From Pseudoalteromonas sp. CO133X (GTDB lineage: Bacteria > Pseudomonadota > Gammaproteobacteria > Enterobacterales > Alteromonadaceae), in NCBI GenBank assembly GCA_004208945.1, contig SGPE01000010.1, positions 39,583 to 103,582 on the forward strand: 64,000 nucleotides of DNA, given 5' to 3'. A program made the position numbers and the translations under genes. The notes under the pieces are model-generated. The model made no database searches and was not told the DNA's origin. It saw nothing but the letters and a program-made list of their open reading frames with translations. Each line of letters begins with the position of its first letter. Positions within the stretch are counted from its first letter, which is position 1. Below are positions 22,606 through 37,787 of the stretch, piece after piece.

Positions 22606-22626
22606 TGCTACACGTGCAGTGCTACA
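22606..22626 (+). promoter_or_regulatory. Candidate activator site upstream of aldA
   Basis: Two identical heptamers TGCTACA (reverse complement TGTAGCA) with exactly 7 bp between them, centred about 120 bp upstream of the -24/-12 promoter. The same 7-7-7 layout with related heptamers occurs upstream of the porin and PQQ-dehydrogenase promoters. Inferred to bind the AcoR-like activator. Confidence 0.5.
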
Positions 22627-22732
22627 CCTGCTGCAAGGTATACCTTTATGAATCGGTGAAGCCCTCACCAGTTTATTATAAAAAGTTCTAAAAATCATAT
22701 GGTTGAAATCTCCAACAAAAAATAGTTAAACA

Positions 22733-22748
22733 TGGTGCGCAGATTGCT
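22733..22748 (+). promoter_or_regulatory. Sigma-54 (-24/-12) promoter of aldA
   Basis: TGGTGCGCAGATTGCT has TGG and TTGCT in the required register (GG and GC 10 bp apart). Transcription would start near 22759 and leave a 5' leader of about 70 nt before the aldA ATG. Confidence 0.65.
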
Positions 22749-22829
22749 GAATGCCCTTTGCAACGACACAACTGTTTTAGCTAAATCCATGTGTCAGAAG
22801 CTTTTTTATCTAATTTAAGAGAATGACCT

Positions 22830-24269
22830 ATGTCTAATATTCCAGTATATCAAAATTATATTAATGGCCAGTTTGTGCAGCATTCAGCCAACTATATTGA
22901 AGTAATGAACCCTGCTAACGGAGACGTATTATCTAAAGTTCCCAGCGCAGACAAGGTTGAAGTAGAACAAGCCATCCATGCAGCAAAACAAGCACAACCA
23001 GAGTGGGCAAGTAGACCCGCAATCGAGCGTGCGCAATACCTCCATAAAATTGCTGAAAAAATACGGCAAAACATTGACAGGCTCGCTCTTGTGATAACGC
23101 AAGAACAGGGGAAAGTGTTGAGCTTAGCCAAGGTAGAAGTCAACTTCACTGCCGACTACCTCGATTATATGGCGAGTTGGGCTAGACATATCGAAGGCGA
23201 GATCATTACCAGTGATAGAAAAGGTGAAAATATTTTTCTATTCAGAAAACCGCTAGGTGTTGTTGCCGGTATCTTACCTTGGAACTTCCCCTTTTTTCTC
23301 ATTGCAAGGAAGATGGCACCCGCTTTAGTTACCGGTAATACCATCGTCATCAAACCAAGTGAAGAAACCCCTAATAACTGCTTTCAATTCACCCAACTCC
23401 TCGATGAAGTTGGTTTACCTAAAGGTGTGTTTAATGTGGTATGCGGATCAGGACGAAATGTTGGCCAAGCCCTTTCTTCTAGCGAAGATATAAACATGAT
23501 TAGCTTTACAGGGAGTGTAGAAACAGGCTCTGTTATTATGTCTGCCGCAGCAAAAAATATCACCAAAGTAAACTTAGAGCTTGGAGGGAAAGCACCCGCA
23601 ATTGTGCTTGATGATGCTGATATAGATCTTGCAGTAAGTGCCATCAAAGCATCACGTATAACCAACACAGGACAAGTATGTAATTGCGCCGAGCTTGTCT
23701 ATGTACACGCTAAGGTTGCTGATGAGTTTATTAGAAAAATATCCGATGCCATGGCATCAACACGTTATGGTGACCCACAACTAGACCCTGATATCGAAAT
23801 GGGCCCGCTGGTTAATAAATCTTGCTTGAATAAAGTAGCCAGTATGGTTGAACAAGCTATTGCAGAGGGGGCAAAAGTGGCAACTGGCGCAAAGGTAGCC
23901 GACACCGACAGTGGCTACCATTACCAACCCACTGTGTTGGTTAACTGCCATGCCGATATGGAAATTATGCGCAAAGAGATTTTTGGTCCTGTACTGCCCA
24001 TTCAAATCGTTAGCAGTTTAGAAGAAGCCATTGAACTTGCAAACTCATTAGAATACGGACTCACTTCTTCTGTCTATACTCAAAGTCTTAGCCAAGCTAT
24101 GCGTGCCATAGAATTACTCAATTATGGTGAAACCTATATAAATAGAGAAAACTTTGAAGCTATACAGGGATTCCATGCAGGCACCAGAAAATCAGGAATT
24201 GGTGGCGCTGATGGCAAACACGGTTTGTATGAATTTACGCAAACGCACGTCGTGTATATGCAGAACTAA
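22830..24269 (+). CDS. aldA: Lactaldehyde/glycolaldehyde dehydrogenase
   Basis: NAD-dependent aldehyde dehydrogenase that turns lactaldehyde into lactate or glycolaldehyde into glycolate. It is 479 residues, the same length as E. coli AldA, and I see long near-identical stretches: ILPWNFPFFLIARKMAPAL, NTIVIKPSEETPNN, AAKNITKVNLELGGKAPAIV, TGQVCNCAE (catalytic Cys), GETYINRENFEAIQGFHAG and KSGIGGADGKHGL. That places it in the AldA group, not generic ALDH. It has its own sigma-54-type promoter and sits next to a porin and a PQQ-alcohol-dehydrogenase operon, so it most likely takes the aldehyde those enzymes make. Confidence 0.9.
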   Translation: MSNIPVYQNYINGQFVQHSANYIEVMNPANGDVLSKVPSADKVEVEQAIHAAKQAQPEWASRPAIERAQYLHKIAEKIRQNIDRLALVITQEQGKVLSLAKVEVNFTADYLDYMASWARHIEGEIITSDRKGENIFLFRKPLGVVAGILPWNFPFFLIARKMAPALVTGNTIVIKPSEETPNNCFQFTQLLDEVGLPKGVFNVVCGSGRNVGQALSSSEDINMISFTGSVETGSVIMSAAAKNITKVNLELGGKAPAIVLDDADIDLAVSAIKASRITNTGQVCNCAELVYVHAKVADEFIRKISDAMASTRYGDPQLDPDIEMGPLVNKSCLNKVASMVEQAIAEGAKVATGAKVADTDSGYHYQPTVLVNCHADMEIMRKEIFGPVLPIQIVSSLEEAIELANSLEYGLTSSVYTQSLSQAMRAIELLNYGETYINRENFEAIQGFHAGTRKSGIGGADGKHGLYEFTQTHVVYMQN

Positions 24270-24294
24270 TCTAAGTTAATTTATCAAAAAATAA

Positions 24295-24316
24295 AGCCGC
24301 AACACATGTTGCGGCT
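24295..24316. terminator. Terminator shared by convergent aldA and porin genes
   Basis: AGCCGCAAC and GTTGCGGCT form a 9-bp stem around ACAT. The minus-strand side is followed by TTTATTTTTT, so it is a strong terminator for the porin gene and a weaker one for aldA. Confidence 0.8.
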
Positions 24317-24348
24317 AATACTGAATCATTTAAGCCATCCAGTTAAGC

Positions 24349-25551
24349 TTAAAAGCTAACTGATGCTTCAACAATAACACCATCCCACTCTGTGCCGTCG
24401 CCAACCCCAAATAACGTCGTTCCTCCCCCTGAAAATTGTTCTTCTTCCTGTCTAACATACTCTAATTTGAATAAGGTGGAATCATTCATCCACCAGCCTC
24501 CCCCAACTTGGAGTCGAGTCGCGGTATTATTATTGTTGATATTGCCACTTTCGTTGTCAGACTCAGCATAGCGAGCGGCTAGATAAAAATGCTTGTTAAA
24601 AGTATATCGCCCCTCAATAGACCAAAATTGCATTTCTGACTCTTGCTCAATGTAACTAGTCTGAAAACTCCCCTGCCCATTAGCCCAACTAACATCGTCC
24701 TCGGCTCGACCATACAAAGCATGCAGTAAAATAGTGTCAGTCATGTATTGAATGTCAGCTTGCCATATAAACGCATCCACCCCAGGCACAATGAGAGGAT
24801 GTGTAGCTCGTGCATTAGGCGCTGTGCTGGCAAACTGATAATTATCGCCGTCGCCAACCGCAATTAACGACCCCGCAGATTTGCCTGTAACTGCACTTAT
24901 TTCGTGATTGGTGGAAAAAACACCTGCGCCAAACGATAGGCCATTAGTTAAATTATAAGTACCACGTAAGCCAAGGTTGTACCCCCGATTATCTGAAAAA
25001 TCCGCAAAAAAATCAGGTACTGAAATAGTTCCATCCCAAGTTACTGTACTGCCATTATTTAATGCATGTACACCATAAAACCAGATACCTTCTTCGGCAG
25101 TGATCATATCGACAAGGCTATTTCCCACAAACGGATTAGTTTGCACTGATGCGCCATCGGAATAACGCAAAAAGTTTTGTGTGGTCGAAACAACATTACC
25201 AAGCCTCACACCTACATCTTGATTAATCTGGTATTGGATCCACGCTAAATCTTGACTAATACTCGCGCTGCCATCATTCCAATCATTCGGCTCTTCAGCA
25301 AGCTCTGCAAAAATAGAAAGTTGATCCGTGACTTGTGCATTAATATTGAGGCCAAATCGTAAGCGATGAAACCCTGAGTCAGTTTTAGCATTGCCTGGAT
25401 CTGCTGCTGCCCCCTCAACCTCCATCCCAGTTTGCCAACTTTGCATAATGCCACCAGATAATTCAATTCTGTCTAGCCAACTTTCCGCACTCATAGCGCT
25501 AAAACAGGCTAAACTCAATGACGTTGCTACTGCTATTTTATTTAATTTCAT
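24349..25551 (-). CDS. Outer-membrane porin-like beta-barrel protein
   Basis: 400 residues with a signal peptide (cleavage after SAMSA), amphipathic strands throughout and a C-terminal Phe, as in trimeric porins. The family is not certain; phosphate-selective-porin-like and DUF-type alginate/hydrocarbon porins are alternatives. The gene lies between aldA and the AcoR-like regulator and has a near-perfect sigma-54 promoter plus a paired TGTNGCA-type site, so it belongs to the same regulon. A role in letting the alcohol or diol substrate across the outer membrane is inferred. Start ATG is preceded by AAGGGA. Confidence 0.8.
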   Translation of the reverse strand: MKLNKIAVATSLSLACFSAMSAESWLDRIELSGGIMQSWQTGMEVEGAAADPGNAKTDSGFHRLRFGLNINAQVTDQLSIFAELAEEPNDWNDGSASISQDLAWIQYQINQDVGVRLGNVVSTTQNFLRYSDGASVQTNPFVGNSLVDMITAEEGIWFYGVHALNNGSTVTWDGTISVPDFFADFSDNRGYNLGLRGTYNLTNGLSFGAGVFSTNHEISAVTGKSAGSLIAVGDGDNYQFASTAPNARATHPLIVPGVDAFIWQADIQYMTDTILLHALYGRAEDDVSWANGQGSFQTSYIEQESEMQFWSIEGRYTFNKHFYLAARYAESDNESGNINNNNTATRLQVGGGWWMNDSTLFKLEYVRQEEEQFSGGGTTLFGVGDGTEWDGVIVEASVSF

Positions 25552-25593
25552 TATTATGTTTCCCTTATGAAGTGTACTTCGAACATAAGGGAT

Positions 25594-25609
25594 GGCAAAG
25601 ACTATGCCA
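25594..25609 (-). promoter_or_regulatory. Sigma-54 (-24/-12) promoter of the porin gene
   Basis: Minus strand TGGCATAGTCTTTGCC: TGGCA and TTTGC in exact -24/-12 register, the best of three such sites around the AcoR-like regulator. Start of transcription would be near 25584, about 30 nt before the ATG. Confidence 0.8.
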
Positions 25610-25703
25610 TTGAAATAAAAACAAACAACAAATTGATTTCAAAGTATTTTTTGCATTAAATACATTGAAGCGTATTCAGTTTAATTCCTTAAAATCAAAC
25701 TAA

Positions 25704-25734
25704 TGTCGCAGGTCAATTGTCACATTTTGCTACA
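25704..25734 (-). promoter_or_regulatory. Candidate activator site upstream of the porin gene
   Basis: Plus strand shows TGTCGCA, 7 bp, TGTCACA (25704-25724), then 3 bp and TGCTACA (25728-25734). The first two repeat the 7-7-7 layout seen upstream of aldA and the PQQ dehydrogenase, and lie about 100 bp upstream of the -24 element. Confidence 0.5.
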
Positions 25735-25761
25735 TACATCGACAGCAAACAAAACCCACTC

Positions 25762-27744
25762 TTAGCAAGCATTATTAGGCTGAACAATCTTATACTTTTC
25801 CATTTTCCTATACACTGTAGAGCGACACACATTAAGCTCTTCAGAAACAGACGTTATATTCCAACGATGTTTTTTAAGCGTTTCAATTAGTAATTGCTCT
25901 TCATGGCAGGCAGTAAATTTAGCTAAGGCTTTTTCCTTTTTAAAAGAGCCCGCCGTTTTATGATCTGTTAGTGAAGAAAAGTGTTCGATTAAATCATCTG
26001 GAAAACAATTAATGGTTATTTCAGCTCCTTCACACACAGCTACCGCATACTTAATTACGCTGATCAGTTGTCTTATATTGCCAGGCCAAAAATAAGATTC
26101 GAGTGCTCTTTTTGCATCATCGGCTATGCTCAAACCATGCACCGCCATGCATTCTCGTTCGAGTATGTTGTCAATAATAAACGATTTATCAGACCGTTCT
26201 CGAAGTGCTGGTAACTTTAAAACCATACCGTTAAGACGATAATAAAAATCCTCTCGAAACTCTTTTAATTCAATAAGTGTTTTTAGATCTTGGTGTGTTG
26301 CAGAAATCACTTGTAAATCTAATGCGATAGGCTCAATCCCCCCAAGAGGCATAGTTTCGCGCTCAGCTAAAACTCGTAATAGCCGAGTTTGAAGTTGTAC
26401 CGGCATATCACCTATTTCATCTAAGAAAAGTGTGCCGCCATTTGCCTGCTCAAGCTTACCTTTCATACCTTTTTTGTGTGCCCCCGTAAAGCTACCGCCT
26501 AGGTAACCAAACAGCTCACTTTCTATTAATGTTTCAGGTATCGCGGCACAGTTTAGCGCCACAAATGGTTTATCAGCACGAGGACTCGATTCATGAATAG
26601 CGCGCGCAAACGCCTCTTTGCCTGTTCCTGTCTCACCGGTAATCATAATAGGTATATCTTTATCAGCGACCAAAAGTGCCCTACGAACAAGCTGCTGCAT
26701 AGAGGCATCTTCACCATTCAATTCATTAATCGGCGGGTGTTTAGTGAATGTTTTACTCTGCACTTTTGGCTCTGCTTGTGCCAATGGCAATACCTTACTT
26801 TTTGGCACCTTTAAGGTTATTTCGACGTTTTCTGACAGCAATGGAAGTTGCACATTAACCGCATTATTTCCTCCATTTGTTTTACTTAGTAAACGATCAA
26901 GAGACAAACCAATAAATTGCTCAACATTAATACCTAGCAACGATTGATGCGATTGAAAATGAGACATAAAACAAAAAAATGCCGCGTGATTTGCACCAAT
27001 AATTGTACCTTTCTCATTAATCGCGATGAGTTGCTCTTGGGTGATATCAAAAAAACTTTCAGCCGACTTTATACTTAATATAAGTTGGTTTTTATAGCTT
27101 GTATGCAAATAGCTATTTTCAATCATGCGCCCATATAACATCACCATTTTGAGTGTCATGAGCTGATGGTGCTTATTTTGGTCAGCGCCAATACACGACG
27201 CGTTTAAGCAACCCAGCAACTCTCCCATGGGATCAAAAATAGGTGTAACGGAGCAACTTAACTCTTTATGACTTGCATAAAAATGTTCAGCCTTATGAAT
27301 GATCAAAGGGGTTTTTTCAATAAGACATGTGCCAATACCATTTGTACCTACTTGATTTTCAGCCCACCTTGCACCAATAAGTAGGCCTGATTGCTTACTC
27401 AAACTTTCCTCTTGAGTAGATAAACTCGTTGCTAAGGTTAAGCCTGTGGCATCAGTTAAAATTGCAGAGTAGCCGGCATCGGCAATACGATTAGCTAAAC
27501 CAACAAGGCCGCACTTCCCCGTATTTAAAAAGGTCTCTCGGAGCTGGAGTTGCGATCGCATTTCGCTGGAAGAAAGTACCTCAACTTCATTAGACGCATA
27601 GGGGTCTAAGCCATAATTGAGCAAACTTCGCTTCCATGATCGCGCGATATATTTAGATGGTTGAATGTTACGTAGTTGAAATTCTGCGGACATAAACGAC
27701 TGAGCACTACTAACGTCCATAGGTTGTGGAGTGTGTTTCATCAC
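25762..27744 (-). CDS. AcoR-like sigma-54-dependent transcriptional activator
   Basis: 660-residue enhancer-binding protein. Order of parts: N-terminal AcoR-type segment (IARSWKRSLLNYGLDP, residues 33-48), a GAF-like sensor (about 70-215, with VGTNGIGTCL), a PAS-like stretch (about 225-330), the AAA+ domain with Walker A GETGTGKE (370-377), the sigma-54 contact loop GSFTGA (417-422; consensus GAFTGA), Walker B LFLDEIGD (439-446), and a Fis-type helix-turn-helix (about 629-650). The start is GTG 27744 or ATG 27741 behind GGAG. It lies in the middle of three sigma-54 promoters and is the obvious candidate to activate them. Its effector is probably the alcohol or aldehyde. Confidence 0.92.
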   Translation of the reverse strand: MMKHTPQPMDVSSAQSFMSAEFQLRNIQPSKYIARSWKRSLLNYGLDPYASNEVEVLSSSEMRSQLQLRETFLNTGKCGLVGLANRIADAGYSAILTDATGLTLATSLSTQEESLSKQSGLLIGARWAENQVGTNGIGTCLIEKTPLIIHKAEHFYASHKELSCSVTPIFDPMGELLGCLNASCIGADQNKHHQLMTLKMVMLYGRMIENSYLHTSYKNQLILSIKSAESFFDITQEQLIAINEKGTIIGANHAAFFCFMSHFQSHQSLLGINVEQFIGLSLDRLLSKTNGGNNAVNVQLPLLSENVEITLKVPKSKVLPLAQAEPKVQSKTFTKHPPINELNGEDASMQQLVRRALLVADKDIPIMITGETGTGKEAFARAIHESSPRADKPFVALNCAAIPETLIESELFGYLGGSFTGAHKKGMKGKLEQANGGTLFLDEIGDMPVQLQTRLLRVLAERETMPLGGIEPIALDLQVISATHQDLKTLIELKEFREDFYYRLNGMVLKLPALRERSDKSFIIDNILERECMAVHGLSIADDAKRALESYFWPGNIRQLISVIKYAVAVCEGAEITINCFPDDLIEHFSSLTDHKTAGSFKKEKALAKFTACHEEQLLIETLKKHRWNITSVSEELNVCRSTVYRKMEKYKIVQPNNAC

Positions 27745-28020
27745 CTTGCTACTCCGTTCTATTGTTGTCGGGCAATTTAAGTAGCAGCATTAGGCTGGAA
27801 CTATAAAAGCCTCAGTCTTTGTTTCTAAAACTATCACAGAAATTTAATCTAACAATACGCCTTTTACCCTATTTTAATTTTGATTCATGATAATTTTGCA
27901 ATACAAAAACATGTATCTCGGTTAAAAAAGCCGCTCACATTGATTTATTTTTGAGACAAGTGTCAAACTCTTAGCATCCTCTCTTCAAGCTATAAATTAT
28001 TCTGCATATAGGTGTCTCAT

Positions 28021-28041
28021 TGTTGCATTTAAGTTGCGACA
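28021..28041 (+). promoter_or_regulatory. Candidate activator site upstream of the PQQ-dehydrogenase operon
   Basis: TGTTGCA, a 7-bp spacer, then TGCGACA (reverse complement TGTCGCA), giving an imperfect palindrome. It is centred about 115 bp upstream of the -24 element, an ordinary distance for an enhancer-binding protein site. Part of the shared 7-7-7 pattern. Confidence 0.5.
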
Positions 28042-28144
28042 CCTGTTTCTCTTTTCGTACGAAAAAATACATTCAATAACCACCAAAAGAAAAATATCAA
28101 CTAAATATCAAATAGTTACCGACCTTGAAATTACTAAAAACTGT

Positions 28145-28160
28145 TGGCATATAATTTGGT
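28145..28160 (+). promoter_or_regulatory. Sigma-54 (-24/-12) promoter of the PQQ-dehydrogenase operon
   Basis: TGGCATATAATTTGGT: TGGCA and TTTG in register, with G in place of the usual C of the -12 GC. Transcription would start near 28171, about 30 nt before the ATG at 28200. Confidence 0.65.
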
Positions 28161-28199: not shown

Positions 28200-29996
28200 A
28201 TGAAAAAAATGACAAATTTGAATCTGGCTTACCTAAATTGCTGTTTAATATTCACTGGGATGTTGATCAACACACACGCATCAGCGGCCAGTTTAACTAA
28301 GCTCACAAAAGAAATTAAAAACTATAAACCAGTTACGCAAAAAAGGCTGAATGAAGCAGACCCAAAAGACTGGCTACTACCCAAAGGCAATTACGAAGGA
28401 TGGATGTATAGCAAGCTGACGCAAATAAACAAAAAGAATGTTAAGTCTTTAAAGCCAGTATGGACGTACTCAACAAACTTAGATTCTGGTCACGAAGCCC
28501 CTGCCCAAGTAAACAATGGCGTTATGTTTGTTTCTACGCCTTACAATCATGTAATTGCGTTAGACGCTAAAACAGGGCAAGTTTTTTGGCGCTATACGCA
28601 CGACAACCCTTATGATTTATCAGTTATGCACAATACTAGCCGCGGCATCGCTCTGTGGGATGATAAGGTTTACGTAGCAGGACTTGATGGCACGTTAAAT
28701 GCCCTTGATGCAAAAACCGGTGAGCGAGTTTGCCAAGCACAAATCGGCGACTGGAGTACAGGTGCATATATCACCTCTGCACCTACACCTGTAAAGGGCA
28801 AGATTCTTGTGGGCCCCTCGGGTGGTGAATATGGTGTCCGTGGTTTTTTGGAAGCAATGGACGCTAAAACATGTAAACAAGCCTGGCGCACATACAGTGT
28901 ACCAGGCCCTGGAGAGGCAGGACACGAAACGTGGAAAAAAGAAGGTAAGCGCCCAGATGCATGGAAGTATGGTGGTGGCAGCATGTGGATGCCTGGTAAC
29001 TATGATCCAGAAGCGGATGTACTTTATTGGGGAGTGGGTAACGGTTCACCTTGGTTAGGTGATCAACGCCCAGGGGACAATTTATACGTTGCCTCCTCCA
29101 TTGCTATGAACCCCGACAGTGGCAAAATTGTTGGTCATTTCCAATATCATCACAATGATTCGTGGGATTGGGCAGCCATGAATGCGCCTATGCTCGTTAA
29201 TTTCAAAAAGGGTAATAAGACGGTTAAAGGCTTAGTCTCTCCCCAGCGAAATGGTTATTTATATTGGCTAGAGCGTAGCAACGAGGGAAAAATTAGCTAT
29301 GTCGAAGGACAGCCGTTTGTAAAAAATAACGCATTTAAATCATTAGATAAAGAAACTGGACGTCCTACTTATGATTACAAACATGTGCCTGTAACAGGCA
29401 AACGCGTTGATTATTGCCCAAGTCTATGGGGCGGTAAAAACTGGCCATATGAAGCCTATAACCCCGAAACAGGCATCATCTATGTTCCTGCCAACAACAA
29501 TCTTTGTAATTCTTTTATTGGTAAATTTCAAGATGATGTCGAGCCTGCTTCAGGACAGTTCTGGGCTGGTATCGACATACCCGATCTAGATGTTTACCTA
29601 GACAATCCTAAAAAAGGAGTAGGTCAACTGCAAGCGTGGAATATCAATACACGTAAAAAAGTTTGGCAACATGACTTTGGCAAAACCATGAATTGGGGCT
29701 CTGTGCTATCCACTGCTGGTGGCATTGTATTTAACGCAGGTACTAACGATCGTATTTTACGCGCGTTTGATTCGCAAACTGGCGATGTGTTGTGGGAGTT
29801 CCCTCTTAACTCGACAGCTATTGCCCCACCAGTGAGCTATGAAGTCGACGGTAAACAATACATTGCCATTACCGCAGGTTACGGTGTGGATGCACATTGG
29901 ACAAATAGCGTGCTGGCAGAAAAAGATAAATCAGGCGAGTGGATTGCTGATGTACCTGAAGGTGGCGTGATTTGGGTATTCGCTTTACCTAATTAA
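28200..29996 (+). CDS. PQQ-dependent alcohol dehydrogenase (quinoprotein), periplasmic
   Basis: 598 residues: signal peptide (cleavage near HASAA), then an eight-bladed propeller of the methanol/ethanol dehydrogenase family with tryptophan-docking repeats such as VIALDAKTGQVFWRY, LNALDAKTGERV and LRAFDSQTGDVLWEF. Metal ligand Glu210 (GGEYGVRG), the GNGSPW loop (Asn281) and catalytic Asp323 (SWDW) are present. Residue 325 is Ala, not Asp, which by the known rule points to a Ca2+ rather than lanthanide enzyme. The vicinal Cys pair that precedes NRG in most relatives is replaced (VMHNTSRG, 142-149). There is no cytochrome domain, so electrons must go to a separate carrier, possibly encoded downstream. 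Confidence 0.92.
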   Translation: MKKMTNLNLAYLNCCLIFTGMLINTHASAASLTKLTKEIKNYKPVTQKRLNEADPKDWLLPKGNYEGWMYSKLTQINKKNVKSLKPVWTYSTNLDSGHEAPAQVNNGVMFVSTPYNHVIALDAKTGQVFWRYTHDNPYDLSVMHNTSRGIALWDDKVYVAGLDGTLNALDAKTGERVCQAQIGDWSTGAYITSAPTPVKGKILVGPSGGEYGVRGFLEAMDAKTCKQAWRTYSVPGPGEAGHETWKKEGKRPDAWKYGGGSMWMPGNYDPEADVLYWGVGNGSPWLGDQRPGDNLYVASSIAMNPDSGKIVGHFQYHHNDSWDWAAMNAPMLVNFKKGNKTVKGLVSPQRNGYLYWLERSNEGKISYVEGQPFVKNNAFKSLDKETGRPTYDYKHVPVTGKRVDYCPSLWGGKNWPYEAYNPETGIIYVPANNNLCNSFIGKFQDDVEPASGQFWAGIDIPDLDVYLDNPKKGVGQLQAWNINTRKKVWQHDFGKTMNWGSVLSTAGGIVFNAGTNDRILRAFDSQTGDVLWEFPLNSTAIAPPVSYEVDGKQYIAITAGYGVDAHWTNSVLAEKDKSGEWIADVPEGGVIWVFALPN

Positions 29997-30007
29997 TTTA
30001 CCAACTA

Positions 30008-30033
30008 AGCGAAAAGCACGCGTGCTTTTCGCT
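30008..30033 (+). terminator. Perfect palindrome between PQQ dehydrogenase and Rieske genes
   Basis: AGCGAAAAGCACG is followed directly by its complement CGTGCTTTTCGCT, giving a 13-bp inverted repeat with no spacer and only TTC after it. It probably acts as a leaky terminator or 3' stabiliser that keeps dehydrogenase mRNA more abundant than the downstream genes. Confidence 0.5.
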
Positions 30034-30083
30034 TTCACGTATTAATAACAAAGACGCTAATCTTATAAAAATAAAGGTATCTT

Positions 30084-30743
30084 ATGACACAAAATGCATC
30101 TTCAAAGAAAATCATCGATTTGCCATGCTCACAAAAAATTAACGACGACGATGTAGCTCAAAACCACCCTGACAATTATTTTCGTCGTGATTTTGTAAAA
30201 TATCTCGCTATCGCAATCCCAATAATGAATCTTCCTTTAAGCTCTGGGGTAAATGCAACCACTAAGCCTGAACGACGTCCTCCTCAAGCAGGAGATCGAC
30301 TCACGTATTTCCAAAAATCAAAACGTGGGCAGATTATTAAGCTGTCGGATTTAAAAGAATTAGATAAACCTCTGCTGGTTGTTCCTTTTGATGTTGAGAA
30401 TAATGTGGTTAAAGATGGCTCTCGCTACAACCAAATACTGCTTCAAAAGTTACCCAGTGAATTACTCTCAGCAGAAACAAAAAAACGTTCAGACCAAGGT
30501 GTTATCGCTTATTCAGCAATTTGTACACATGCCGGTTGCCCTGTCACCGGTTGGATGGCTGATGAAAAAAACTACATGTGCCCTTGTCACCAATCTGTTT
30601 TTAATCCTAAAGATAGCGGCGTCGTTGTGTCTGGTCCTGCTACACGCGGGTTACCTGCAATTGGGCTAAAAATTGAAGCCGATGAAATTATCCTAACCAA
30701 TACATTTAATAGCTGGATTGGTTTTGGCAAAAGACCCAAATAA
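30084..30743 (+). CDS. Tat-exported Rieske [2Fe-2S] protein
   Basis: 219 residues. A 33-residue N-terminal extension leads to a twin-arginine signal (RRDFV, 34-38, followed by a hydrophobic run), so the folded cluster protein is probably carried by Tat and may stay anchored. The Rieske ligands are clear: Cys147-x-His149 and Cys166-x2-His169, with Cys152 and Cys168 placed for the usual disulfide. It resembles the iron-sulfur subunit of cytochrome bc-type complexes, but no cytochrome b gene is near. Next to a cytochrome-less PQQ dehydrogenase it is likely an electron carrier or part of the oxidase route. AAAGGTAT lies before the ATG. Confidence 0.85.
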   Translation: MTQNASSKKIIDLPCSQKINDDDVAQNHPDNYFRRDFVKYLAIAIPIMNLPLSSGVNATTKPERRPPQAGDRLTYFQKSKRGQIIKLSDLKELDKPLLVVPFDVENNVVKDGSRYNQILLQKLPSELLSAETKKRSDQGVIAYSAICTHAGCPVTGWMADEKNYMCPCHQSVFNPKDSGVVVSGPATRGLPAIGLKIEADEIILTNTFNSWIGFGKRPK

Positions 30744-30755
30744 TGGAGAAGCATC

Positions 30756-31217
30756 ATGAATATTCAAAAAGGTTTACTCAATTTAATAACCCTAATCATC
30801 ATTATTTTAATGCCCATGAAAGCGCTTAGTGCGGCTAAACCTATAACAGGTGTGAGCTGCCAAGAAGGCTTTTATATCCTTACACCAGATAAACATATCC
30901 ATTGGATAAGGGATCAACAAAAAGAGCGCACGCTTGTTTATTCTGAAGGTGACGATATTTATGCCATGGCTGAGTGTGGCACAGGTGTAATAACAGTATT
31001 TGAAAACAAACAATTGCAAACACCCCACTATAGCGCTTATTACAGCCCTAATTGTAGGAATATTGGCACAGAAGTAGGTGAAACAAAAAGCATTTATCAA
31101 GGTGAAGTTAAAATAAATCACATACAAGCAACACCTAAAAGCCTAAAAATACGTCTTGCTAACAATGCACTTTTCAGTAGCAATAGCTGTACTGATCTTG
31201 CGATGCAAAGCGAGTAA
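30756..31217 (+). CDS. Periplasmic four-cysteine protein of unknown function
   Basis: 153 residues with a clear signal peptide (hydrophobic run ending KALSAA). The mature part holds four Cys (in VSCQEG, AECGTG, PNCRNI and NSCTDL), enough for two disulfides, and is rich in beta-type segments. The start is 12 bp after the Rieske stop and the stop is 3 bp before the next gene, so it is part of the operon. No family recognised; an accessory or folding factor for the electron-transfer proteins is possible. Confidence 0.7.
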   Translation: MNIQKGLLNLITLIIIILMPMKALSAAKPITGVSCQEGFYILTPDKHIHWIRDQQKERTLVYSEGDDIYAMAECGTGVITVFENKQLQTPHYSAYYSPNCRNIGTEVGETKSIYQGEVKINHIQATPKSLKIRLANNALFSSNSCTDLAMQSE

Positions 31218-31220
31218 GCA

Positions 31221-34200
31221 ATGAAAGACACACGTTATTATCTTGCTTTCACGCTAAGCGCTTTAGCAGCAGCTTGTTTGTTTAATTACTCAGCGGCTAG
31301 TAACAAAGACAATGAAGAAGAACAAGCACTTAAGCAACTGCTAAACACCCTAAATGATAGTTATAAGTTAACAATTGACGTCACCGCTCCTCATTTAAAT
31401 ACTCCCATGTTTACACTAGGCATGGAGCTATTTTTTAGCAAAGCGTTGAGTGGCAATCAAGATGTAGCCTGTGCAAGCTGTCACCACCCATTTCTAGCAG
31501 GTGGTGACAGCCTTAGCTTACCCATAGGTGAAGCTCCCTATGATGAGGATATAATTGGCCCTGGCCGCTGGCATGACTGGCAACGCTCAGCAGATCCAAA
31601 AGCAGATGGCGCCCCGAATGTAGCACGGCATTCACAAACAATTATTAATGCTTCTTTGTACAAAGAAGCCATGTTCTATGATGGCCGTATTTTTGTACTT
31701 GAAAATGATACTAACAAAGCGGATACCCCCCTACCTCACCGCACCCCTGACAGTAATTTATGGCAAGGAGATCAGTTAGCAGGAAAAAACTTACTTGCAA
31801 CACAAGCTCGTTTCCCTGTTGTTTCAAGTGATGAAATGCGAGGCTATACTTTCGCAGCTGCCAGCACCAATGAAGACACCCGACACAAATTAACAAAACG
31901 CTTACAGCAACACGATAAAAACCAACAATGGCTTAAGCTATTTCGCAATGCCTTTAATGATTTACATGCCGCACCAGAGCAGCTTTTTACCTTTGAGAAT
32001 ATTGCAACCGCAATTTCTTACTACCAATCAACCCAACTATTGATTAACACTCCATGGTTTAATTACCTTAACGGAGAGAGTGATGCAATGACTCCCAGCC
32101 AAAAACGGGGGGCACAGTTATTCTTGAAGTCAGCTAAACAAGGTGGTGCTGGCTGTATAGAATGTCATACGCCCCCTATTTTTTCTGACGAGAAATTTCA
32201 CAATATTGCTGCGGTACAGGTCGGTCGCGGCAAACAGCCAAGTGGTGAGGACTACGGTCGGCGAGGGGTTACACAAAAAGACGACGATCGTTATAAATTT
32301 AGAACACCATCTCTGTTAAATGTTGCAGCAACAGCACCCTACACTCACTCTGGTGCGTTTATAAATTTAGAATCGGTCATTAAGCACCACCTTGATCCTG
32401 CCAAGTCGTTGCAGAATTTTGATTACAGCTTTGCCGACAACCCACAACTAAGTTATGTCGCGAGCTTATTATCAAATAGCAAACTCAATTCTCACCGTGC
32501 ACTAGAGCAATTACAAAATGAACAACAAAAAGGAGTCAGTCTACTGGCATCAGGCATTACCTTATCTGATGCTCAGCTCTCTGATTTAATTGCCTTCTTA
32601 AATAGCCTCACCGACCCTTGCATCAATAGTCGAGAGTGTATGTCTAAATGGGTCCCCACTGAAACGGATAAAGCGCCAGATATACACCGTTTAAACGCAC
32701 GGTTTAAACCTTTTACAGCACCGCCTCAGCCAATAAGCAGAATATCTCACACAGAAAGTAATTTACCGCAAATGTCATTCGACAACGCGAATATTAAGCC
32801 GGCGTTATTATTAAGTGATATGGAATTTGGCTGTAAATCCCGTACTTCAATCCCACCACAAAACACGAGCGCTGCAAAACGTTTTGATGAAGTATCACTT
32901 GATGCTGGCATAAGTCATCAACACCATATAACTTGGCAAAACTACACCCTATTATCAGCGCAACGGCTACTTTTTAGTGGCGGCGTTGCTATGGGTGACA
33001 TAGATGGTGACTGCTGGCCTGACATCTTCTTTCCTACGGGTGACGGTGCCCCTGATAAACTATATCAAAATCAGCGTAATGGGCATTTTTCAGATATTAC
33101 TCGCTCTTGGGGTATTACCCAAAAGGAGCTATCCAATGGCGCAGCGATGGTGGATATTGATGGCGATGGTGATTTAGATATTTTCACCTCAAACTTGCTT
33201 CACCCTCATCTACCTTCCGTTAACAGTCAAGTAAACAAACACCCTCACCATCAAAGCCCCACTCTCTATCTTAATGAGCAGCAACACGGCTTTATTGTAA
33301 GTCATGATATTGGTTTGAATACCCAGCTTACTAGCTGGTCTTTCGCTTTTGCCGACTATGATAAAGACGGGGATGTCGATATGCTAACCAACCATTGGCG
33401 TGGGCCTGGCCTTGGTGGCCAGCTTCCTAATCACTTATGGGAAAACACAAGCCAAGAAAATACGCTGACATTTCAAGCGCAAGATGAGACAGCAGGTTTG
33501 CTTGATTTGATAGGAAGCACCGACTTTACTTTTACCTCTAATTTTTCGGATTTTAATAATGACGGTTGGCTAGATTTATTATTTACTGCGGACTTTGAAA
33601 CCAGCCAAGTCTATAAAAACCTGCAAAATGGGCGGTTTGAAAAAGTGACGCATGAACACTCGATTCATGATCAAAATGGAATGGGCGCAGCCATAGCTGA
33701 TTTTGATAACAATGGCACATTAGACTGGTTTGTAAGCAGTATTTGGGATCCAAATGGTCAGCCTGAAGGTAGCTGGGGAGTGATAGGTAATCGTCTATAC
33801 AGTAACCAAAACAATCAGTTTATAGATATCACTGAACAAGCGGGTGTAGACAAAGGGTTATGGGCTTGGGGAGCATGCTTTGCTGATTTTAACAACGATG
33901 GCTGGCTAGACCTATTTCATGTTAATGGTTTTGATCTGCCCAAACAGCTAAGCAAACGCTTTGCTAACCCTCGCGCTTATCAAAAACTAAAACTCGCTAT
34001 GGCTGAGTTTGAAAAAACACACAGCCGCTTATTCATTTCAAATCAAGATGGTACCTTTACAGAACAAAGTAAGCTTTGGGGGATTGGCGATCAACTCTCT
34101 GGCCGAGGCGTTGCGTGTGTCGACTATGATCGGGATGGCGATATCGATATTGTAATAAATAATCATCAACAGGCTCCTCTGCTCTATAAAAATCGACATA

Positions 34201-34517
34201 ATGATGAAAGTAAAGACAGTTACCTTTCCATTAGCTTGCGCGATACAACAAAAAATACGCGCGCACTAGGCGCTAAAGTGTACGTTACTGTTGGCGAAAC
34301 AACTCAATTACAGGAAGTTCAAGCAGGCGGAAGCTTTCTAAGTGGCGCCCCTTCCACCCTGCACTTTGGTTTAGGACAGGCCTCGCAAGCTGACACGATC
34401 AAAATTGTATGGCCTGATAAAACAAACACAGTAAGTACTTTTACAAATGTACCTGCCAATCAATTTATTTATATCACTACCGACTTAACAGCTAACCTTA
34501 AAAAGTATCGAAAATAA
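31221..34517 (+). CDS. Di-haem cytochrome c peroxidase/MauG-like domain fused to FG-GAP repeats and ASPIC/UnbV domain
   Basis: 1098-residue exported protein. After the signal region comes a MauG/CcpA-type di-haem domain with two CxxCH sites (CASCH at 84-88 and CIECH at 312-316) and the downstream FRTPSLLNVAATAPYTHSG block typical of that family. From about residue 590 to 990 there are at least seven FG-GAP/VCBS-type calcium-binding repeats (for example DIDGDGDLDIF, DYDKDGDVDML, DFNNDGWLDLF). The C-terminus is an ASPIC/UnbV domain (GAKVYVTVGETTQLQEVQAG and IVWPDKTNT). In this operon it may accept or pass electrons from the PQQ dehydrogenase, or protect against peroxide; the fusion itself is unusual. 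Confidence 0.88.
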   Translation: MKDTRYYLAFTLSALAAACLFNYSAASNKDNEEEQALKQLLNTLNDSYKLTIDVTAPHLNTPMFTLGMELFFSKALSGNQDVACASCHHPFLAGGDSLSLPIGEAPYDEDIIGPGRWHDWQRSADPKADGAPNVARHSQTIINASLYKEAMFYDGRIFVLENDTNKADTPLPHRTPDSNLWQGDQLAGKNLLATQARFPVVSSDEMRGYTFAAASTNEDTRHKLTKRLQQHDKNQQWLKLFRNAFNDLHAAPEQLFTFENIATAISYYQSTQLLINTPWFNYLNGESDAMTPSQKRGAQLFLKSAKQGGAGCIECHTPPIFSDEKFHNIAAVQVGRGKQPSGEDYGRRGVTQKDDDRYKFRTPSLLNVAATAPYTHSGAFINLESVIKHHLDPAKSLQNFDYSFADNPQLSYVASLLSNSKLNSHRALEQLQNEQQKGVSLLASGITLSDAQLSDLIAFLNSLTDPCINSRECMSKWVPTETDKAPDIHRLNARFKPFTAPPQPISRISHTESNLPQMSFDNANIKPALLLSDMEFGCKSRTSIPPQNTSAAKRFDEVSLDAGISHQHHITWQNYTLLSAQRLLFSGGVAMGDIDGDCWPDIFFPTGDGAPDKLYQNQRNGHFSDITRSWGITQKELSNGAAMVDIDGDGDLDIFTSNLLHPHLPSVNSQVNKHPHHQSPTLYLNEQQHGFIVSHDIGLNTQLTSWSFAFADYDKDGDVDMLTNHWRGPGLGGQLPNHLWENTSQENTLTFQAQDETAGLLDLIGSTDFTFTSNFSDFNNDGWLDLLFTADFETSQVYKNLQNGRFEKVTHEHSIHDQNGMGAAIADFDNNGTLDWFVSSIWDPNGQPEGSWGVIGNRLYSNQNNQFIDITEQAGVDKGLWAWGACFADFNNDGWLDLFHVNGFDLPKQLSKRFANPRAYQKLKLAMAEFEKTHSRLFISNQDGTFTEQSKLWGIGDQLSGRGVACVDYDRDGDIDIVINNHQQAPLLYKNRHNDESKDSYLSISLRDTTKNTRALGAKVYVTVGETTQLQEVQAGGSFLSGAPSTLHFGLGQASQADTIKIVWPDKTNTVSTFTNVPANQFIYITTDLTANLKKYRK

Positions 34518-34533
34518 AAAGGAATTGATAAAT

Positions 34534-35685
34534 ATGAATTTAAACCAATGTGTTAACTATCATGATTTTGAAAAACTCGCTAAACAACGCCTACCTAGCC
34601 CTATTTATAACTATATTGCGGGGGGTGCCGATGATGAAGTAACCATGCGACGCAACACTGAAGCATTTAATCAATGTGATTTAGTGCCCAATGTACTCAG
34701 AGGTGTTCAGCACGTTGACCTTAGCACCGAAGTTATGGGGCAAAAACTTAAACTACCTATTTATTGTTCTCCAACAGCTTTGCAACGCTTATTTCATCAC
34801 CAAGGCGAACATGCTGTAGCGGGTGCAGCTGAAAAATTTGGCACCCTATTTGGCGTGTCATCCCTAGGCACCGTATCAATGGAGAAAATAGCAAAAGATT
34901 TTGATATTCCTCAAGTTTATCAGTTTTATTTTCATAAAAATCGCGATTTAAACAAAGCAATGATGGACCGTGCAAAAGCCTGTGGTGTTGAAGTCATGAT
35001 GTTGACTGTTGACTCAATTACAGGTGGAAATAGAGAGCGAGATTTACGCACAGGGTTTTCAATTCCTTTCAGGTTAACTATGTCTGGTATGTGGGAGTTT
35101 ATTCGTAAGCCGAACTGGGCCATAAACTATTTACTGCATGAAAAGTTTTCGCTCCCGCAACTACAAGAGCACATAGATATGAAAGGAAATAGCTCTTCAA
35201 TCGGTGACTACTTTACCAATATGCTAGACCCTTCAATGAACTGGCAAGATGTCGCAGATATGGTCAAGTATTGGAATGGTCAATTTTGCCTTAAAGGTAT
35301 TATCAGCGTCGAAGATGCTAAGCGCGCTGTTGAAATAGGCTGCACGGGTATTGTGGTATCAAATCATGGCGGGCGACAATTAGATGGCTCACGCAGCTCG
35401 TTTGATCAACTGGCTGAGATTGTAGATGCGGTTGGCAATGACATTGATGTGTTATTTGACAGCGGCGTACAACGGGGCTCACACGTACTCAAAGCGTTGT
35501 CGATTGGCGCAAAAGCGGTTGGGATTGGTCGAATGTATCTTTATGCACTTGCAGCTGCAGGCCAACCAGGCGTTGAGCGAGTACTTGGTTTGATGCAAAG
35601 TGAAATTGAGCGAGATATGAAACTCATGGGCTGCACCAACATCAGTCAATTACAACGACATCACGTTAAATTTCGACGCGAATAA
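34534..35685 (+). CDS. FMN-dependent alpha-hydroxy-acid dehydrogenase (L-lactate dehydrogenase family)
   Basis: 383 residues, the length of LldD/lactate oxidase/glycolate oxidase enzymes, which oxidise L-2-hydroxy acids to keto acids and pass electrons to quinone or oxygen. The catalytic SNHGGRQLDGS block and the phosphate-binding DSGVQRGSHVLKALSIGAK...GIGR block are intact, as is the N-terminal PIYNYIAGGADDE stretch. I start at the ATG at 34534 with AAGGA upstream; a TTG at 34525 is in frame. Substrate is not fixed by motif: lactate and glycolate are the best candidates because AldA makes exactly these acids. It lies 16 bp after the di-haem gene. Confidence 0.88.
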   Translation: MNLNQCVNYHDFEKLAKQRLPSPIYNYIAGGADDEVTMRRNTEAFNQCDLVPNVLRGVQHVDLSTEVMGQKLKLPIYCSPTALQRLFHHQGEHAVAGAAEKFGTLFGVSSLGTVSMEKIAKDFDIPQVYQFYFHKNRDLNKAMMDRAKACGVEVMMLTVDSITGGNRERDLRTGFSIPFRLTMSGMWEFIRKPNWAINYLLHEKFSLPQLQEHIDMKGNSSSIGDYFTNMLDPSMNWQDVADMVKYWNGQFCLKGIISVEDAKRAVEIGCTGIVVSNHGGRQLDGSRSSFDQLAEIVDAVGNDIDVLFDSGVQRGSHVLKALSIGAKAVGIGRMYLYALAAAGQPGVERVLGLMQSEIERDMKLMGCTNISQLQRHHVKFRRE

Positions 35686-35726
35686 AACACCCAAATACAA
35701 CAAGATTTACACAAAGGAGGTCAACC

Positions 35727-37787
35727 ATGGCCCTTAATTATAAAAAAATACCTTTGTATTTATCAGCGATAATCTGCGCTTGGTCAATACCCGTCGATGC
35801 TTTTGCAGCTAATCAACCACACACCCTGCCATTGGAAATTATTGATGTCACCGCGTCACGATTACCAAGGGAGCTTTACAACACTCCCGCAGCTGTCACA
35901 CTTGTTGATGGGCAACGTGAATTTCAACTACAAGAAGCTTTACAGTTGGATGAAGCTCTGCAATTTGTGCCTGGTGTGTACTTTCAAAACCGCTATCATT
36001 CTGCGCAAAATCTACGTATTTCTATTCGTGGCTTTGGTTCTCGCGCACCGTTCGGTGTAAGAGGAATGCAATTACAAGTAGATAATATCCCCTACACTTT
36101 ACCCGATGGGCAAACTCAAGTAGATGATATTGAACTTAACGGTATAGACCAATTACATGTGACTCGCGGCGCAGCAACCGTCCAATACGGTAACGGCGCA
36201 GGAGGGGCAATTAATATCAGTACAAAAAATGGCGAAACATTCAAAGGTGTCACTTTAAACCTTGATGTCGGTAGTGATGACTTATATAAGTTAAACGCAC
36301 AAGCAGGAACCAGCAACAACACTGGCAGTGCCTATATCAGTGCAAGCCATCTCAACTTTAATGGCTATCGAGAGCAAAGTCAGGTTGAAAAAACCACTTT
36401 GCGCGGTAAGTTTATTTGGAATATTAACGACAGTAAAACACTCACTGTAATCACTTCACTCATGGACATGCCAACATCCGAAGACCCAGGCGGGCTAACA
36501 AGAACCCAAGTTAATGAAGATCGACGTCAAGCCACTTTTATGGCTAAACGATTAGACAGCGGACAGCAGGTCGAGCAACAAACCCTAGGTTTAACTTTAC
36601 GAGATAGTTCGTTCGAAAATACCCAGTGGATGATTAATCTATTTACAACCCATCGCGATTTTGAACAACAACTGCCATTTCCTGGCAGTAGTTTAATTGC
36701 CTACGATCGCTGGTTTTATGGAAGTAGTTTTGAAATAACCCAAGACTTCCGAGCAAATAAACGACCGATTCGCCATACATCGGGGGTTGAAATACGTAAG
36801 CAAGAGGATGACCGGCAACGCTTTAGCGTCTCCCCTAACGCTGAAATAACAAGGCAAACGGTTGATGAGCTGCAAGAAGCAAGGTCAATGAGTGCCTTTA
36901 GTATTGTAGATTGGCACCTTAACGACGCTGTAATTTTAACCACTGGGGTACGCTACGATGATTTAAAAATGTCAATTGACGCTCACTTAGCGCAAAGTGG
37001 TGTTGGTTCAGGTCAACGTAACTATCATGAGTGGAATGGCAATTTAGGGCTTAGCTACCGGCTGGGTTTAAGGCATCAGTGGTATGCTAATTTAGCCACC
37101 TCTTATGAATCACCAACCTTTACAGAGTTTGCCAACCCACAAGGTGCAGGCTTTAACCCATTTTTAAAACCTCAAGATTCTTTAAGCCGTGAGTTAGGTG
37201 TTCGAGGTGAGTTGAGTGACATTCAATACGACATCACTTTGTTTGCAACCAAAGTGACTGATGAAATAATTCCCTATGAAATTGACGGTCTAAGATTTTT
37301 TGAAAATGCTGGCAAAACTGACCGAAAAGGCCTTGAGTTAGCTTTTAAGTGGCAACTCAATGAACAATGGCAATGGCGAAATGCGCTGACATTGGCTCGC
37401 TATCAATTCGATAACTTCACTCCACTAAGCGGTGATAATGTAAACGGAAATCGTATGCCTGGCTTACCAAGGCAACAGTGGGTCAGTCAAATTAACTGGC
37501 AGTATAATAAATGGCGAATTGAATTTGAGACAAGTTATACCGGTCGGTTCTATGCCGAAAATAGTAACGACACACAAATAAAACAAAATTGGCTATTTAA
37601 CACACGCGCTTCCTACTCGCTATCACCTTCTGTATCGATAAAAGCGGGGATACGTAACTTATTCTCAAAAGATTATTTTGCAAATGTACGTATTAACGCA
37701 AATGCTAATAGAGATGTGAGCCAACGCGGTTACTTTGAGCCAGCACCTGAACGTAATCTCTATTTTGGTCTGAGCGCAAAATTCTAA
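35727..37787 (+). CDS. pqqU: PqqU (YncD)-like TonB-dependent receptor, probable PQQ importer
   Basis: 686 residues: signal peptide (ending AFAANQ), TonB-box-like LEIIDVTASR, plug domain and 22-strand barrel ending in Phe. It resembles E. coli YncD, now called PqqU, the outer-membrane PQQ transporter, in many signature stretches: NTPAAVTLVDG, SIRGFGSRAPFGVRGMQL, PYTLPDGQTQ, EDPGGLTRTQV, FFENAGKTDRKGLELAF, GNRMPGLPRQQ and YFEPAPERNLYFG. It is the last gene of the operon that starts with a PQQ enzyme, a context that fits PQQ uptake into the periplasm. Strong AAAGGAGG site before the ATG. Identity by remembered comparison, not by search. Confidence 0.8.
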   Translation: MALNYKKIPLYLSAIICAWSIPVDAFAANQPHTLPLEIIDVTASRLPRELYNTPAAVTLVDGQREFQLQEALQLDEALQFVPGVYFQNRYHSAQNLRISIRGFGSRAPFGVRGMQLQVDNIPYTLPDGQTQVDDIELNGIDQLHVTRGAATVQYGNGAGGAINISTKNGETFKGVTLNLDVGSDDLYKLNAQAGTSNNTGSAYISASHLNFNGYREQSQVEKTTLRGKFIWNINDSKTLTVITSLMDMPTSEDPGGLTRTQVNEDRRQATFMAKRLDSGQQVEQQTLGLTLRDSSFENTQWMINLFTTHRDFEQQLPFPGSSLIAYDRWFYGSSFEITQDFRANKRPIRHTSGVEIRKQEDDRQRFSVSPNAEITRQTVDELQEARSMSAFSIVDWHLNDAVILTTGVRYDDLKMSIDAHLAQSGVGSGQRNYHEWNGNLGLSYRLGLRHQWYANLATSYESPTFTEFANPQGAGFNPFLKPQDSLSRELGVRGELSDIQYDITLFATKVTDEIIPYEIDGLRFFENAGKTDRKGLELAFKWQLNEQWQWRNALTLARYQFDNFTPLSGDNVNGNRMPGLPRQQWVSQINWQYNKWRIEFETSYTGRFYAENSNDTQIKQNWLFNTRASYSLSPSVSIKAGIRNLFSKDYFANVRINANANRDVSQRGYFEPAPERNLYFGLSAKF

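Follow-up and report, generated by a model that had tools for sequence, protein, structure and literature searches.

A predicted heptamer-pair operator at three sigma-54-type promoters around an AcoR-like activator gene in Pseudoalteromonas sp. CO133X

Introduction

The window examined for the current report is a stretch of 64,000 nucleotides from Pseudoalteromonas sp. CO133X (contig SGPE01000010.1, positions 39,583 to 103,582), in which the gene for an AcoR/EatR-like sigma-54-dependent activator lies close to the aldehyde dehydrogenase gene aldA, a putative porin gene and a putative pyrroloquinoline quinone (PQQ) operon. An original prediction, made from the letters of this DNA, held that each of the three targets is preceded by a -24/-12 promoter and, farther upstream, by a pair of TGTNGCA-related heptamers with exactly 7 bp between them, and that these pairs represent one type of operator for the activator encoded in between. 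The question raised by this locus is whether the activator does recognize such pairs, or whether the pairs are fortuitous, serve another regulator or are parts of a more loosely built site. We predict that the heptamer pairs are very probably upstream activating sequences (UAS), or enhancers, of the activator at 25762-27744.

Results and discussion

Rarity and anatomy of the heptamer pairs

The operator consensus is TGYNRCA-N7-TGYNRCA, in which the heptamer TGYNRCA is its own reverse complement. The three pairs and the three promoter boxes lie where the original prediction had placed them (Table 1), and these pairs are precisely the exact consensus matches that the window contains, where shuffled versions of the sequence yield a mean of 0.22 and reach three in only 1 of 100 shuffles. 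When one mismatch is allowed there is no enrichment (4 pairs, 3.86 expected). Across the 4.44-Mb genome, eight exact pairs are found, three of them in this cluster, as compared with two matches to a reversed control pattern; pairs with one mismatch number 180. An occurrence of the pair as often at random positions, which had been named as the outcome that would speak against a shared operator, is not what the genome exhibits.

The five exact pairs outside of the cluster are all in coding sequence, within frames of 231, 467, 358 and 283 amino acids and within a short frame that resembles a cold-shock protein. A TGGY-N7-TTGC-like box is missing within 250 bp of four of these pairs. At the fifth (L141) there is one, TGGCATTATTTGTGC, but it sits 76 bp upstream of the pair on the plus strand, which is not the side expected for an enhancer, and within a coding frame. 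No further target of the operator is detected by exact match in this genome, a type of search that does not rule out weaker targets. A strict inverted form of the consensus, TGTNRCA-N7-TGYNACA, was dropped because it misses the aldA site; two of its four matches in the genome lie outside of the cluster, in the 231-residue frame and the short cold-shock-type frame. The looser form was adopted after inspection of the sites on plasmid pTE101a, which is described below.

Between the nearer heptamer and the -24 box there are 106 bp at aldA, 94 bp at the porin gene and 103 bp at the PQQ operon. The original prediction drew a contrast between two pairs of the same direction and one inverted pair. This contrast is not firm, since the Y and R letters alone decide whether a pair of such self-complementary heptamers looks direct or inverted, and the porin half-site TGTCACA is directionless. 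At two of the three promoters the pair is accompanied by a third heptamer. The one at aldA (TGCTGCA, 22629-22635) is 2 bp off the pair, and in orthologs a related TGATGC block comes after the aldA site; the one at the porin gene (TGTAGCA, 25728-25734) is 3 bp further upstream, giving a layout of 7-3-7-7-7 in the window and on pTE101a and of 7-3-7-6-7 in genome G574.

Conservation in orthologous clusters

Among close relatives the activator is present in 2 of 147 genomes at E 1e-100, the organism's own included, the second being G057 with a 99% identical copy; at E 1e-145 it is present in 8 of 395 genomes of the family, again with its own included. The plasmid collection that we searched holds one close ortholog (65.9%), on plasmid pTE101a of Alteromonas macleodii Te101 (NZ_CP018322.1, L036). 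Further clusters have activators that are 64% (G574), 56% (G972, G989 and G933) and 46% and 44% (G1172 and G1129) identical to the one in the window. The pTE101a cluster resembles that of the window in its gene set, gene order, gene directions and all three operators, and differs from it in being plasmid-borne and in having one additional small gene between the porin gene and aldA. Its operators, all with N7 spacing, are TGTTGCA-N7-TGCGACA (PQQ), TGCTGCA-N7-TGCGACA (porin) and TGCGACA-N7-TGCTACA (aldA). The aldA operator is TGCGACA-N7-TGCGACA in G574 and has N8 spacing in G989 and G933. In the PQQ operator of G057 both heptamers are identical to those of the window and 3 of the 7 spacer bases are changed.

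In alignments of the orthologs the heptamers and the -24 boxes stand out as conserved islands, separated from each other by about 90-128 bp, or by 141 bp in G1172 and 138 bp in G1129, the most distant clusters, where a TGGC-N7-TTGC promoter downstream of the site was spotted by eye and positioned by script. We selected 14 ortholog promoter regions, one representative per lineage, leaving out the near-duplicates L034, L151, L152 and L154, the PQQ and aldA regions of G1172 and the site-less loci L052 and L155. An exact N7 pair is present in 10 of these 14 regions (mean 0.01 and maximum 1 in 1000 dinucleotide shuffles), and single heptamers number 36, as compared with 6.0 expected. The spacings between heptamers are N7 for 10 pairs, N3 for three and N6 and N8 for one each, with one or two at any other spacing. 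The window and pTE101a had served to define the consensus. A fair test is therefore provided by the held-out regions of the other three lineages, and 4 of these 8 regions have the N7 pair (mean 0.003 and maximum 1 in 4000 shuffles). The eight loci of the clade, which are partly non-independent (L034 is a 99% relative, and L150/L151 and L153/L154 are close pairs), contain in their 169,211 bases 12 exact sites, all of them before the genes expected as targets, where base composition leads one to expect 0.14.

The pair is therefore not absent from orthologous promoters, the other outcome named beforehand as adverse; it is retained ahead of aldA, the porin gene and the PQQ genes, with some regions as exceptions. 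Taken together, the rarity of the pair in the genome and its conservation in orthologous clusters argue for the claim that a single operator type might serve the activator encoded in between.

The pTE101a cluster lies near a transposase of the Tn3 family and one of the IS200/IS605 type. This location and the presence of the activator in just one other of the 147 close relatives are signs of horizontal spread.

Promoters and IHF-like words

The expectation of a -24/-12 promoter at each of the three targets was borne out at aldA and the porin gene, which have GG-N10-GC; the PQQ operon has GG-N10-GG, its -12 box being TTGG and not TTGC. The spacing that the original prediction had written for these promoters, TGGC-N8-TTGC, fits none of the three and should read TGGC-N7-TTGC. 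All aligned sequences of the PQQ promoter share TTGGCAT, but the -12 box varies: the window and G057 have TTGG, and the four remaining orthologs TTGA or TTGT. A consensus -12 box is present in the rearranged gene run of G1172 and G1129. Scanning the genome with TGGYRYRNNNNTTGC gave 71 matches, versus 37 for a control pattern. Among these 71, the aldA and porin promoters alone have one of the eight exact pairs upstream (at 107 and 95 bp by starts); the PQQ promoter is missing from the list because its -12 box is TTGG.

The consensus for binding of the DNA-bending protein IHF is WATCAANNNNTTR, and a similar word lies between operator and promoter at each of the three targets (Table 1). At the PQQ promoter four sequences, namely the window, G057, pTE101a and G933, have the exact word, each time 26 bp from the -24 box. 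In 12 representative regions, a set that excludes those of G1172 and G1129, there are three exact words versus 0.27 expected (none of 500 shuffles reaches three) and, when one mismatch is allowed, seven words versus 4.2 expected, a weak excess that is equalled in 6.8% of shuffles.

The activator and its family

The activator consists of an N-terminal sensor region, a Sigma54_activat AAA+ domain at residues 343-509 (PF00158, 3.8e-66) and a Fis-type helix-turn-helix (HTH) domain at residues 615-651 (PF02954, 1.1e-9). Its sigma-54 contact loop is GSFTGA, as compared with GAFTGA, and either GSFTGA or GTFTGA is found in the close orthologs and in L052 and L155; six more distant members that were aligned have GAFTGA (four), GAFTGG (one) and GTFTGG (one). 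Similarity to many gammaproteobacterial members extends over the full length, N-terminal region included, at about 38-42% over ~95% of the protein. The annotated EatR of a Pseudomonas aeruginosa plasmid is 38.8% identical over 94% and has the matching domain order. No Pfam GAF match was found in the N-terminal region at E 0.001, and the score for DhaR (NF008485) is 264 bits, below the curated cut-off of 551.

The recognition-helix segment [VI]CRST[VI]YRKM is common to the activators whose clusters carry the sites, whereas many distant members of the AcoR/EatR family have SRNTLYRK in place of the CRST version. Heptamer pairs were sought in 53 loci of other family members (589 kb), which come from a draw limited to the best 80 matches and to a sample of 369 genomes. 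The strict inverted pair TGTNGCA-Nk-TGCNACA (k from 0 to 25) did not occur there with N7, and occurred once each with N3 and N5; the looser N7 pair occurred twice, versus 0.41 expected, and is not enriched. An N7 operator common to the whole family is thus not borne out by these loci. The correlation between the helix and the distribution of the sites fits an operator that would be specific to one activator clade.

Clusters of TGTCGCA/TGCGACA or TGTTGCA/TGCAACA with N5 and N7 spacings were seen upstream of sigma-54-like sites in two of the distant loci (L038, 3419-3437, and L027, ~1332-1460), and related half-sites may exist beyond this activator clade.

Alternative readings and a proposed mechanism

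A number of observations weigh against our interpretation of the pairs as enhancers of the activator. The consensus was chosen with the window and pTE101a in view, and the count for the held-out regions is the only one that is free of this fitting. Four of the 14 selected regions lack an exact N7 pair (the spacing is N6 in the first and N8 in the second, the third has an N7 pair with a mismatch, and the porin region of G1172 has two heptamers separated by 14 bp), and the PQQ and aldA genes of G1172, which lie behind a Rieske gene, have no site directly upstream, so that their inclusion would bring the count to 10 of 16. No exact sites occur in L152, in L052 (Stutzerimonas, activator 48%) or in L155 (G929, activator 41-42%), and the single matching promoter of the Stutzerimonas activator has no heptamers. 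Near other members of the family, an N7 pair precedes 1 of 38 sigma-54-like sites (in L027). In the window and in 5 of 5 aligned orthologs the PQQ promoter departs from the consensus at its -12 box, and this form is conserved. At several promoters of aldA and the porin gene, the best IHF-like word has two mismatches.

The simplest alternative, that the three pairs resemble each other by chance, can draw on the one-mismatch count in the window, which is that of chance, and on the control scan, which puts roughly one in two sigma-54-like matches in the genome down to background. We nevertheless regard it as exceedingly improbable, given the enrichment of exact pairs in the window and a conservation among orthologs, held-out regions included, that is far above that of the shuffles. 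It is also unlikely, if less extremely so, that a different regulator, whether a repressor or a global factor, binds the heptamers and controls the three operons jointly, while the AcoR-like protein binds elsewhere. The genome does encode other regulators, including 15 further loci that resemble the AAA+ domain of the activator. A global regulator fits poorly, however, because no other exact pair precedes a sigma-54-like box, whereas the pairs of this cluster are at enhancer distance from such boxes and track the activator across genomes; moreover, the three promoters enclose no frame of at least 120 amino acids besides aldA, the porin gene and the activator gene.

A more serious challenge concerns the form of the site. 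Instead of one 21-bp operator, the true unit might be a group of two or three heptamers that are each bound independently, with N7 as the commonest of the spacings 3, 6, 7 and 8. The third heptamers at the porin gene (in the window, pTE101a and G574) and at aldA in the window would be explained in this way, as would the N8 and N6 variants and the occurrence of both direct and inverted arrangements, and we consider such a group a real possibility, though not the likelier form. What speaks for the 21-bp operator is the predominance of N7 over every other spacing.

If the pairs are indeed enhancers of the activator, its N-terminal region might sense a compound that is consumed or formed in the oxidation of short-chain alcohols or diols, and its Fis-type HTH would bind TGYNRCA heptamers that are 14 bp apart from centre to centre and ~95-105 bp upstream of the -24 box. 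An IHF-type bend between operator and promoter would then carry the AAA+ ring to the sigma-54 RNA polymerase, and three transcripts would be activated together, for aldA, for the porin and for the PQQ-dehydrogenase operon with its PQQ-receptor-like gene. A broader proposal, which we offer tentatively and would not yet favor, is that the activator reads quasi-symmetric TGYNRCA pairs whatever their direction (direct at aldA, inverted at the PQQ operon), in a grammar that differs from inverted TGT-N10-12-ACA sites, and so couples alcohol sensing to PQQ acquisition in an organism without detectable pqqC.

PQQ acquisition and alcohol oxidation

The last gene of the PQQ run (35727-37787) encodes a PqqU-like TonB receptor, which scores 306 bits against the PqqU family NF041535, below the cut-off of 1200. 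Among solved structures it matches only PDB entries 9c4o and 6v81 at E 1e-20 (4e-69 and 2e-69), which are those of YncD and the PQQ transporter. A search of ten genomes or records that was confined, among PQQ synthesis genes, to pqqC found none in the organism's own genome (100% complete), G057, G972, G933, a Halomonas (L041) or pTE101a, and found pqqC in G574, G1172, one Pseudomonas genome and one Stutzerimonas genome. From the lack of a detected pqqC, and from the PqqU-like receptor that the PQQ run encodes, we infer that PQQ is probably imported by this organism. Scavenging of PQQ by PqqU-type receptors is already known as widespread (PMC12124388); the receptor in the window differs from the PqqU/YncD importer in lying behind a sigma-54-like promoter.

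The PQQ alcohol dehydrogenase, the aldehyde dehydrogenase and the alpha-hydroxy-acid dehydrogenase could jointly oxidize a short-chain alcohol or diol, and the inducer is probably an alcohol, a diol or its aldehyde. An example of such a pathway is the conversion of 1,2-propanediol to lactaldehyde, lactate and pyruvate.

Relation to known systems

In the Clostridiales sigma-54 UAS survey (PMC6615313), the UAS are mostly 100-250 bp upstream of -24/-12 promoters, the activators are of the Fis-type HTH kind, the targets mostly adjoin the activator gene and 32 orthologous groups have multiple UAS per operon. The systems described there are like the locus in the window in having a Fis-type HTH activator, local targets and UAS upstream of -24/-12 promoters. 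Fifteen of the groups, to which this comparison extends, use TGT-N10-12-ACA, whereas the window has a pair of self-symmetric heptamers at 7 bp. Where our sites have TGT at the start and ACA at the end, these outer triplets are 15 bp apart, which places such sites outside of the TGT-N10-12-ACA class. The sections of PMC8784404 and PMC8427195 that we consulted contain no operator of this form, and no description of this regulon or of a heptamer-pair operator was found among the papers listed by literature searches. Local sigma-54 regulons are already a known kind, and it is the heptamer-pair operator that appears to be new for this activator clade.

What the analysis provides, from sequence alone, is a specific predicted operator that a single clade of AcoR-like activators would use, and a proposed small regulon of three promoters. 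A further prediction is that marine bacteria, of which some are seemingly unable to make PQQ, induce a PQQ enzyme and a PQQ-receptor-like gene together in response to alcohol. A footprinted site would help to decode recognition by the activator's Fis-type helix, which has many relatives: in the plasmid collection, 201 records have one place that covers at least 80% of the activator.

Gene layout of the locus

Table 1. Coordinates in the window of the genes, promoters, IHF-like words and predicted operators
Feature	Position	Strand	Remarks
aldA operator TGCTACA-N7-TGCTACA	22606..22626	.	exact consensus match
IHF-like word AATCATATGGTTG at aldA	22693..22705	+	1 mismatch to consensus
aldA -24/-12 promoter TGGTGCGCAGATTGCT	22733..22748	+	conserved in ortholog alignment
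aldA, aldehyde dehydrogenase	22830..24269	+	NF007497/PRK10090, 771 bits, above curated cut-off of 500
Putative outer-membrane porin, 400 aa	24349..25551	-	weak Pfam porin matches only
Porin -24/-12 promoter TGGCATAGTCTTTGCC	25594..25609	-	exact position confirmed
IHF-like word AATCAATTTGTTG at porin	25626..25638	-	exact to consensus
Porin operator TGTCGCA-N7-TGTCACA (gene strand: TGTGACA-N7-TGCGACA)	25704..25724	.	exact consensus match
AcoR/EatR-like sigma-54-dependent activator, 660 aa	25762..27744	-	domain matches
PQQ operon operator TGTTGCA-N7-TGCGACA	28021..28041	.	exact match, within longer conserved block from 28012
IHF-like word TATCAAATAGTTA at PQQ promoter	28106..28118	+	exact to consensus
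PQQ operon -24/-12-like promoter TGGCATATAATTTGGT	28145..28160	+	-12 box off consensus
Putative PQQ operon (from gene spacing)	28200..37787	+	profile matches

Searches of Pfam and PDB sequences with the porin of the window gave no significant match; weak porin-family matches were seen in some orthologs, 1 of 7 aligned having a Porin_4 match (1.3e-6) and 3 of 7 a KdgM match (0.0047 at best). The PQQ run encodes, in order, a PQQ alcohol dehydrogenase (TIGR03075, above its cut-off), a Rieske protein, a protein of 153 amino acids, a protein with CCP_MauG and FG-GAP/UnbV_ASPIC matches, a flavin mononucleotide-dependent alpha-hydroxy-acid dehydrogenase-like protein and the PqqU-like receptor. The fourth of these proteins (1098 amino acids, 31221-34517) combines FG-GAP repeats and an UnbV_ASPIC domain with a part of the MauG/cytochrome c peroxidase type; 2 of its 22 order-level matches, its own and that of G574, cover the full length, and the other 20 correspond to the N-terminal half.

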